From the NCBI RefSeq assembly GCF_025398335.1, contig NZ_JAODOO010000006.1:124001-188000 (forward strand): a stretch of DNA of 64,000 nucleotides, written 5' to 3'. The position numbers and the translations under genes are program-made. The DNA is from Clostridium sp. CX1. Lineage in GTDB: Bacteria; Bacillota; Clostridia; Clostridiales; Clostridiaceae. Of this stretch, positions 48,129 to 52,146 are shown one piece after another; the stretch's first letter is position 1; the number at the start of each line of letters is the position of its first letter. A model generated the notes under the pieces. That model was not told the DNA's origin. It ran no database searches and saw only the letters and a program-made list of their open reading frames with translations.

Positions 48129-48488
48129 TTATCCTAAAATCTGTTTTAAAGATGCAATAACTCTCTCCTCTTCAAAGGGTTTTATTATAAAATCCTTCGC
48201 CCCTGCCTTAATTGCATTTAACACCATAGCTTGCTGCCCCATAGCACTACACATAACAATTTTGGCACTTGAATCCACTAACTTTATCTGTTCAACAGCT
48301 TCTATACCATCCATATCTGGCATTGTAATATCCATAGTCACTAAATCAGGCTTATATTGCTTGTACATCTCTACTGCTTTTTCTCCATCTTCTGCCTCTG
48401 CAACCACTTCAAAGCCATTTTTAATAAGCATATTTTTAAGCATCATTCTCATAAAAGCTGCATCATCAACAACTAATACTGTAGCCAT
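48129..48488 (-). CDS. cheY: CheY-like single-domain response regulator
   Basis: 119-residue receiver domain and nothing else. VVDDAAFMR gives the acidic pair, VTMDITMPDMDG the phosphorylated Asp (about residue 53), VMCSAM the Thr/Ser position (Ser) and KPF the Lys (about 105). This sequence type (FMRMMLKNML, MDGIEAVEQI) is that of chemotaxis CheY. It lies outside a chemotaxis operon but among MCP and c-di-GMP genes. Confidence 0.9.
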   Translation of the reverse strand: MATVLVVDDAAFMRMMLKNMLIKNGFEVVAEAEDGEKAVEMYKQYKPDLVTMDITMPDMDGIEAVEQIKLVDSSAKIVMCSAMGQQAMVLNAIKAGAKDFIIKPFEEERVIASLKQILG

Positions 48489-48719: not shown

Positions 48720-49784
48720 CTAACTCTCTCCAACAATAGAGTCTATAGTTATATTTATTGCACTTAGTAAATTTATATCATGGTATGGTATTTTCTCTCC
48801 TGTTGCTGAATTATAGCTTACCCTTACTACCGGTCTATCTGGTAATGATTTATTTTGTCTCACTACATATCCTTCCACACCATTAGAAAGTCTTACACAT
48901 ACACCTAAAGGATAAATATAAAAATTCTCCTTAAACTTAGTAACTATATCTCTATCAAACATAGTGTTAACATTGCATAATATATATTCATAAGCTTCAT
49001 TAGGCTTAAATCTACTCCTGTAACATCTATCAGCACTTATTGCTGTAAAAACATCGCACAAGCTAATTATTTTAGCATGTTGATTTATATTCCCTCCCTT
49101 TACTCCAAAGGGGTACCCTGTTCCGTCAACTTTTTCATGATGCTCTATTACACCTGCTAGAATATTGCTGTTTTTTATGCCTGCATTTTTTAGAATTCTA
49201 TAACCATAGACAGGATGTTTTTTTACCTCTTCAAACTCTTCTTTCGTAAGCCTTCCCTTTTTATTTATGATTTCTGATGGAACTACTATTTTCCCTATAT
49301 CATGCAATATAGAACTAATTCCAATTTCCTTTATAGAGGAGATTTCTAGATTTAGCATCTTTGCTAAAAATATAGACATTATTCCCGTATCAATAGAATG
49401 CACATAGGTATAGTTATCGTATTTTATTACTTCATATAAATTGGTATTTATATCCCCTTCTTCTACAATATAGCTAGTCAATTCCTCTATAATCTTTAGA
49501 GATTCTTCTATTTTAGTTCTATTTCCATCAATTATATTATGAAACATATTTGGAAGCCTTTTAAGAGTAGTTTGCTTTAGATTTTCTATATTCCTATCAT
49601 ATTTTATATCTTCTAAATCCTTGTCCTCTATATAAATGTAACAAAAACCACTCTGCTTTATTCTATTTATGTAAGATATATTTAGCCTTGTTCCTGAAGG
49701 AAGCAAAACCCTACCATAACCATCAAATAAAGTTTTGGCTAATATTTCATTACCCTTTAAGTTTCTAACTAACTCAAATCTCAT
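48720..49784 (-). CDS. HD-GYP cyclic di-GMP phosphodiesterase
   Basis: 354 residues. N-terminal region of about 110 residues without clear family, then HD-GYP domain (about 125-270): HSIDTGIMSIF, HDIGKIVVP (metal HD), KKHPVYGYRIL, EHHEKVDGTGYP (GYP motif) and LCDVFTAISADRCYR. Expected to degrade cyclic di-GMP. A C-terminal segment of about 70 residues (GVCVRLSNGVEGYVV) resembles the small beta domain seen after many HD-GYP domains. Counterpart of the GGDEF gene 1 kb downstream. Confidence 0.9.
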   Translation of the reverse strand: MRFELVRNLKGNEILAKTLFDGYGRVLLPSGTRLNISYINRIKQSGFCYIYIEDKDLEDIKYDRNIENLKQTTLKRLPNMFHNIIDGNRTKIEESLKIIEELTSYIVEEGDINTNLYEVIKYDNYTYVHSIDTGIMSIFLAKMLNLEISSIKEIGISSILHDIGKIVVPSEIINKKGRLTKEEFEEVKKHPVYGYRILKNAGIKNSNILAGVIEHHEKVDGTGYPFGVKGGNINQHAKIISLCDVFTAISADRCYRSRFKPNEAYEYILCNVNTMFDRDIVTKFKENFYIYPLGVCVRLSNGVEGYVVRQNKSLPDRPVVRVSYNSATGEKIPYHDINLLSAINITIDSIVGES

Positions 49785-49969
49785 ATAATATCCCCATTTC
49801 TAAAATATAATTAAAGAATTTATGTATTTTTCAGAATTGACTGCATATTTATATTTTAATCTATGCTTTCTGCAGATTCAATTACTTTTATAGTATTATC
49901 TTTATACTTAATAAGCTTGTTTTATTATTTTTATTTTTGCTTTATAATCTACTATAGGAGGTGTTTATT

Positions 49970-50284
49970 TTGGATATTATAATTACAGAAAAAGCACAAA
50001 ATTATTTAAGAAAGAAAAAATGCAGCACTATAATATTGGACATGACTTTAATAGGAGGAAATGCCTGTTGAAGTGGTCATGGTACAAAAACTCAGTACCT
50101 CCCTTCAGTTAGAATGGGATTAAATGATGAAGGTCTTCCTTTAGGATTTTCTGAACTACATAAGGATGATATAGATATTCTAGTATCCTTTAGATTTAAA
50201 GCGATGGATAATAGAAAGGTAATTATAGATTCAAAAAAAGTTCTTTTTTCTGAAAACTTAAAAGTTACACTTGAAGATTTATAA
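49970..50284 (+). CDS. HesB-like CC/Sec-motif small selenoprotein (in-frame TGA)
   Basis: A 104-codon gene that ORF calling misses because codon 34 is TGA (50069-50071). AGGAGG is eight bases before the TTG start. The protein begins LDIIITEKAQNYLRKKKCST, an IscA/HesB-like start, reaches GGNAC-Sec-SGHGTKTQ, and continues in frame with conserved-looking sequence to the TAA at 50282. The Cys-Sec pair matches the small proteins known as CC/Se motif family. A hairpin begins at the TGA itself: 50069-50073 pairs with 50103-50107, 50075-50076 with 50101-50102, 50081-50085 with 50095-50099, loop 50086-50094, which is where a bacterial SECIS should be. A redox or metal role is inferred. A nonsense-mutated pseudogene is the alternative. 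Confidence 0.8.
50069..50107 (+). promoter_or_regulatory. Predicted SECIS hairpin
   Basis: Starts at the UGA: 5 bp, one bulged U, 2 bp, a small internal loop, then a perfect GGUAC/GUACC helix with a nine-base apical loop that begins 15 bases after the UGA. Position and size fit bacterial SECIS elements read by SelB; the loop lacks a G in its first two positions, which many have. Confidence 0.65.
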
Positions 50285-50291
50285 CCAAGCC

Positions 50292-50335
50292 AAGGCTGCC
50301 TTATAATGCATAAATGTGTATTATAAGACAGCCTT
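50292..50335 (+). terminator. Terminator after the selenoprotein gene
   Basis: Long imperfect stem AAGGCTG..TTATAAT with ATTATAAG..CAGCCTT (50292-50307 with 50320-50335), followed by TTTCTAGTT. It separates the gene from the next chemoreceptor. Confidence 0.75.
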
Positions 50336-50433: not shown

Positions 50434-52146
50434 ATGAGATTTTTTTTAAACCTAAAGATAAAGACAAAATTAATTGCTGCATTTATGATAGTGTCACTAT
50501 TAATTGCCCTTTCAGGAACTATTGCAATAAATAGTATGAAAAGCTTAGCCCTTAACGGACAAGATATGTATAGAAATAATCTAGTAGTTATTGATTATTT
50601 ATCTACTATTGAGAAAAACCTATTAACCATTCGTAGTAACTTCTTACTAATTGCATATGAGAAAGATAGCTCTAAAGTAAAGGAAAGAATAGATATTATA
50701 AATAAGTTATCAGAAGAAGATGATCATTTGTTAACAAAGTATCAATTCACTGATGTATCTTCTCATGAAAAGACTAAAATGGACGAATTCACCCAAGGCT
50801 TACTTACTTACAGAAACTTACGTAATAAATCTCTTAAGTTAGCAGAAGAAAATAATTATGATCAATTACTTGCATATATGCCAACGATGAATGAGGCACA
50901 AAGCAAAGTAGAGAAAGATATTAAAGAATTAATAGAGATAAATAAAAGTATTGCTAGTAGTACTAATGATAAAAATCTAAGTACATCTAGAGGTTCATCA
51001 AATGTTATGATAGGGATAACTATATTAGCCTTCCTAATATCAATTATTATAGGAATAAGTTTATCTAACTCTATATCTAATGAGTTAAATAGAGGGATGG
51101 AACTGGCCAAACAACTTGAAGCTGGAGATCTTACCGGCCAAGCCTCCGTTAAAGTTCATGATGAAATAGGTGTTCTTATTAAAGCTTTAAATGTTGCTAT
51201 TAGAAATTCTAGAAATGTTATAGAACAGGTGGTTAATGCCTCCAAGGATGTTAACATGTCTAGTACAAGGTTTATAACCTCGGTGGGGGAAATTTCTAAT
51301 AGAATGAGTATTATAGACAATTCTACTAAAGAAATTGCTAAGGCCTCTGAAGAAACCAGTGCTTCTACTGAAGAAATAAGTGCTTTCACTGAAGAAATTG
51401 AAGCTACTACAAGAGAACTTGCTAAAAAAGCTGACATAGGAAGCAATCATTCAAAAGAAATAAAAGAAAGGGCTATTCATATCCGTAGTAAAGCTTCTGA
51501 ACGCTCTAAGCTATCCGGCAACCTTTATAGAGAAAAAGAAAAGAATATATTAAAGTCTATAGAAGAGGGGAAGGTGGTTTCGGAAATAAAAAACATGGCA
51601 GATGCTATTTCAAATATTGCAGGTCAAACTAACCTTTTAGCATTAAATGCAGCAATTGAGGCTGCTCGTGCTGGTGAACAGGGAAGAGGCTTTTCTGTTG
51701 TAGCTGATGAAGTACGTAAGTTAGCTGAGCAATCTAGCGAATCAGCAGCCACCATTCAGCAAGTAGTATTGCAAGTTGAAAACTCCTTTAATAGCCTAGC
51801 TTTACATGCCTCAGATATTTTAAACTATATTGAAAATACTGTAAGTAAAGACTATGATGCCTTTGTAGATATAGGAATTCAATATGAAAAGGACGCTGAA
51901 TTATTGAATGAACTTACTCAAGACTTAGCATCCAATGTAGATGAAATATCTTCAACAATAAATACTGTTAACTATACAATTCAAACTGTATCTGCCACTG
52001 CTGAAGAAAACTCTGCAAGTTCCTCTGAAATAGCTGTAAATATAGGTGAGACCTTAAACCATATTCAACAGGTTGTCTTAATGGCTGAGAATCAGTCCAA
52101 AACCATAGAGACTCTTAACTCACTAGTTAGTAAATTCAAATTGTAA
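50434..52146 (+). CDS. Methyl-accepting chemotaxis protein (4HB sensor)
   Basis: 570 residues: TM1 (about 12-32), extracellular four-helix-bundle sensor (about 33-188, 4HB_MCP type), TM2 (about 191-210), HAMP (about 211-262), signalling domain with conserved tip [20 protein letters not shown] onward (397-435). Ligand not predictable. GAGAGGAG precedes the ATG. Alone on the plus strand between two terminators. Confidence 0.93.

Follow-up and report, generated by a model that had tools for sequence, protein, structure and literature searches.

A stretch of 64,000 nucleotides from Clostridium sp. CX1 (referred to here as the window) contains a short frame that is interrupted by an in-frame TGA and then continues to a TAA, raising the question of whether this locus encodes a selenoprotein, in which the TGA is read as selenocysteine (Sec), or whether the TGA ends a short product or marks the decay of a gene. 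The original prediction favoured a small selenoprotein. It is very probable that 49970–50284 is indeed a translated selenoprotein of the CC/Se motif family, as sel genes are present in the genome, homologues carry Cys or TGA at the site and the sequence after the TGA is conserved.

The TTG start with its strong ribosome site, and the 104-codon frame with a TGA right after a Cys codon and a closing TAA, had been described previously and are all read in the sequence (Table 1). The TGA at 50069–50071, directly after the Cys codon TGT, is the single interruption; 33 codons lead up to it and 70 more follow before the TAA at 50282–50284. The gene was expected to escape a plain list of open reading frames (ORFs), and the list for the window (60 residues and above) has no entry in this frame. 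Its shape alone is not rare, with 11 TGA-interrupted frames in the window that have at least 25 codons before the TGA and 60 after it; the 49970 frame is the only one of the 11 with the ribosome-site motif, and it stands above chance because of its conserved second copy and its relatives.

Table 1. Coordinates of the candidate selenoprotein gene, its signals and neighbours in the window, and of the Sec machinery on contig C10 of the same genome
Feature	Position	Strand	Remarks
Very probable selenoprotein gene, CC/Se motif family	49970–50284	+	TTG start, 104 codons + TAA
Ribosome site AGGAGG	49956–49961	+	eight bases 5′ of TTG
TGT TGA, read as Cys-Sec pair, residues 33–34	50066–50071	+	from sequence, paralog and alignment
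Hairpin starting at TGA, candidate bacterial SECIS	50069–50107	+	from fold and family-wide Sec/Cys contrast
Strong hairpin 3′ of gene, possible terminator	50292–50335	+	from fold; T run unclear
Response regulator	48129–48488	−	neighbour
HD-domain protein	48720–49784	−	neighbour
Chemoreceptor	50434–52146	+	neighbour, next same-strand gene
selD	C10 51549–52466		one in-frame TGA inside matched stretch, near start
selA	C10 52789–54141
selB	C10 54207–56099
tRNA-Sec	C10 56250–56342		also called tRNA-SeC by ARAGORN

Further neighbours encode a lipoyl-synthase-like radical SAM protein and CbiM. As 149 bases and a strong hairpin (−23.9 kcal/mol, z −5.68) separate it from the next same-strand gene, the gene is probably a single unit. 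The terminator originally proposed here holds in part: the hairpin is strong, but it has no clear T run and a strict terminator scan found nothing for this gene. A promoter scan gave 5 hits against 5.2 expected from shuffles, no better than chance.

The read-through protein was searched against its own genome and six genomes of the same genus. It has a paralog on contig C1 of its own genome that is 58–60% identical and carries Cys-TGA at the same codon, the second TGA of this paralog being its natural stop; no relative was found in the six same-genus genomes. The two copies share 68 aligned codons after the TGA, with 55 base differences that produce 28 non-synonymous codons, whereas placing these changes at random yields a mean of 35.4 (P = 0.0036, or P = 0.00035 jointly with the absence of a new stop), and NG86 estimates for this part are dN 0.24 and dS 0.85. 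Both copies are thus under purifying selection downstream of the TGA, where the sequence is conserved and not decaying. Applied to the codons that precede the TGA, the test is uninformative, with no signal of selection (P = 0.44). The paralog is closely preceded by an ORF (L019:1197–1484) for a 95-residue, Cys-rich, membrane-like protein with a weak DUF3784 match below the cut-off; it ends 16 bases 5′ of the paralog and is possibly co-transcribed with it. A third relative in the same genome (contig C4, L062:2001–2300) has Cys-Cys without a TGA and sits on a long tree branch.

The original prediction called for a search of the genome for the sel genes, and selA, selB, selD and tRNA-Sec (selC) are all present, in one row on a single contig (Table 1). 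Among the 44 genomes with a family match, selA is found in 29 of 29 that have a TGA member and in 6 of the 15 that do not (Fisher P = 7e-6); genomes were sorted for this comparison by the stop column of the searches, G267 was placed without a reading of its frame, and G313, a partial match in which no motif was seen, was counted as lacking a TGA. Within the close group alone the contrast is weak (7/7 against 1/3, Fisher P = 0.067), and all six same-genus genomes have selA.

Relatives were collected at two levels. A profile built from both copies matched in 9 of 206 same-family genomes, Clostridium sp. CX1 included, and the NF041239 model, searched against 391 class-level genomes, matched in 37. 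When TGA is read as Sec, the 60 extracted loci (window included) have Cys-Cys, Cys-Sec, Sec-Cys, Sec-Gly-Cys, a lone Sec or tandem Sec-Sec at one and the same place. For alignment, 36 of the 60 loci were hand-picked for spread, with the window counted once and the tandem-Sec group excluded; the NF041239 search supplied 26 of these rows, whilst the window gene, its paralog and L024–L031 came from the two-copy profile search. In the 11 closest rows the window TGA aligns only with TGA (eight rows, window included) or Cys (three rows), which answers the question put by the original prediction about homologues at this position. The place of the partner Cys shifts, lying either ahead of the Sec/Cys site or two to three residues beyond it. 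These 11 rows group together in a quick tree of the 36 rows with the motif columns omitted (SH-aLRT 98), on which at least seven changes between Sec and Cys are needed, the starred branches alone forcing four. The 11-row group constitutes a natural Sec/Cys exchange series. Scans of a genome contig collection found no relative, a viral contig search and a plasmid protein search found no named relative, and PDB sequence searches gave one match at E 2 and otherwise none.

The tandem members form a subgroup with two TGA codons in a row, comprising nine loci in eight genomes that were picked for this trait (L063, L064, L065, L066, L067, L068, L069, L077 and L078). A profile of this subgroup, searched against the 391 class genomes, returned the same nine as its nine best matches, all with two TGA and far above the rest. 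The residues flanking the pair are conserved, with GUUxx[FY]xxPSxxMGxP in eight loci, and the first locus exceeds the NF041239 cut-off. The UU motif is absent from Table 1 of a 2026 review (PMC13188914), and a literature search for it found nothing.

The 12-bp hairpin said to begin at the TGA does fold, with 5+2+5 pairs and −10.1 kcal/mol (z −1.74). By itself the hairpin is modest: equally good folds arise in 11 of 200 shuffles, and a different pairing wins in the 91-base context around it. Across the family, a 42-base segment starting at the site was folded and compared with dinucleotide shuffles for 58 of the 60 loci (five of 65 rows had been removed for wrong coordinates), the two left out being L060 (a partial match) and L073 (a Cys-Sec member with its motif outside the search span). 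At the site the 39 Sec rows have a mean z of −1.03 and the 19 Cys rows one of +0.27 (P = 2e-6), and with one value per genome (28 Sec, 19 Cys) P is 1e-5; within the Sec genes, the site mean of −1.03 compares to −0.08 at other positions (P = 9e-7), all three P values being rough as the rows are related. Within the Cys genes there is no site-specific effect (P = 0.99), and the window gene, at z −1.82 in the 42-base test, is in line with the Sec rows. A SECIS at the TGA, as proposed earlier, is plausible and has family-wide support, but the predicted apical loop of the window gene contains no G and no SECIS family of Rfam (E up to 1) matched this stretch.

If the TGA were a nonsense mutation in a decaying gene, the remainder of the frame would be a relic. 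A TGA-free ancestor is possible, as the family has Cys members without TGA (L024–L026, for example), and the lack of a match in any of the six same-genus genomes also points this way. Decay is nevertheless very unlikely given that the paralog carries its TGA at the same codon, that beyond it both frames stay open and under purifying selection, that only Cys or TGA occupies the position in the closest rows, and that the full Sec apparatus is present in the genome. Production of two short proteins, or ordinary readthrough that inserts another amino acid, is extremely improbable. If Sec were not inserted, translation would yield a product of 33 residues; against this, the TGA exchanges with Cys and not with other residues in the close rows, every genome with a TGA member (29 of 29) also has selA, and the hairpin tracks the TGA. 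Both a pseudogene and plain readthrough were rejected because of the conserved paralog and the Cys/TGA exchange.

For the selenoprotein reading, a mechanism can be proposed in which SelB, with Sec-tRNA, would read the UGA at 50069, helped by the hairpin that starts there; the machinery is identified by sequence, and insertion is inferred. The predicted product would have 104 residues with an adjacent Cys33-Sec34 pair. Two such neighbouring residues are able to join in a selenenylsulfide or to bind a soft metal. Exchange of Sec and Cys at one site, together with a partner Cys whose position shifts, would fit a two-residue redox or metal centre, and the Cys33-Sec34 pair would most likely act as a redox or soft-metal binding centre. 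The domain carrying this centre would be small and may derive from the HesB/IscA fold, and the chances that centre and domain are as described are perhaps even.

The genomic context of the relatives offers a concrete and testable clue to the function of the family. In seven of the eight further same-family genomes in which a member occurs (G078, G079, G089, G097, G099, G102 and G141; loci L085, L087, L088, L089, L090, L091 and L092), the gene directly precedes a carrier-like ORF of 80–97 residues, an AMP-binding ligase, LuxE and LuxC, all on the same strand. The cluster is absent beside the member in G086 and beside the class-level member in G355. Pfam matches to the ligase, LuxE and LuxC lie far over the cut-offs in all seven cluster genomes. 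The small ORF, scanned in six of the seven (all but G097), reaches the cut-off for carrier proteins (PP-binding) in G078 and G099, stays below it in G089, G102 and G141, and has no match in G079. The genome of Clostridium sp. CX1 has no LuxC match, so the window gene, which is not beside this cluster, is linked to it by descent only. Among the papers listed by a literature search, none names this cluster in its title or in the opening part of its abstract. A tentative reading is that the 11-row group could be a distinct selenoprotein subfamily serving an uncharacterised acyl-reduction pathway, and that the two copies in Clostridium sp. CX1 might be orphan versions that perform the same redox or metal chemistry with another partner.

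The likeness to HesB/IscA that formed part of the original prediction bears on a further alternative, that the product is a true Fe-S carrier selenoprotein of the type represented by TIGR01911. Pfam PF01521 (Fe-S_biosyn) gave a weak match to residues 1–38 of the window protein (13.7 bits, E 0.074) that is below the cut-off of 26.3 bits, and an initial Pfam scan, in which residue 1 of this protein was entered as Leu, found no match at E 1. At family level the case is better, since 10 of the 36 members match Fe-S_biosyn at E 0.1 or better and hhalign of the 36-row family against the three TIGR01911 matches of the genome gives a probability of 82.6%, yet for the 11-row subfamily this falls to 1.9%. 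Those three matches (L082, L083 and L084, on contig C12) are small and have one in-frame TGA each, and one of them is over the cut-off. An AlphaFold2 model from one sequence was poor (pLDDT 50), and the best Foldseek hits obtained with it, sliding clamps at E 0.49, were taken as meaningless. IscA has a C-terminal Cys pair. This pair is missing from the window protein, as C18, C33 and U34 are its only thiols or selenols and no Cys occurs beyond residue 34. Overall, a true Fe-S carrier is unlikely, while HesB-like descent of the window protein is possible; the earlier HesB/IscA assignment is weakly supported.

Compared with known systems, the window protein resembles TIGR01911 proteins in being a small selenoprotein type, with weak profile similarity at family level; it differs in that the model does not match it, leaving it outside the TIGR01911 matches of its own genome, and in having no UxGP, the motif given for HesB-like selenoproteins in PMC13188914. 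The designation as a small CC/Se motif protein was well chosen: NF041239, the ‘CC/Se motif family (seleno)protein’, matches residues 1–99 (22.6 bits, E 8e-5), albeit under its cut-off of 40 bits, and the paralog likewise scores 22.3 bits. All 36 aligned sequences match NF041239 at E 0.01 or better, 26 of them by construction, having been found with that model. The window score places the gene as a relative outside the curated model and not as a filed member, and on sequence grounds it is a divergent member of a catalogued selenoprotein family whose function is not known. A set of genuine small selenoproteins thus falls outside the curated model, and genome annotation is consequently likely to lose such genes. 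In PMC13188914, NF041239 appears among the predicted selenoprotein families under the description ‘hypothetical protein predicted in Moorella thermoacetica’, with Zhang and Gladyshev 2008 and Peng 2016 given as sources. The window protein shares with this family a full-length match, a size of about 100 residues, the occurrence of Sec and Cys forms, and the placement of its CC, CU or UC motif; it differs in belonging to the separate 11-row set, in the greater length of the segment that follows the motif (QYxPSVRM in the window protein), and in having CU where the review lists CxxU.
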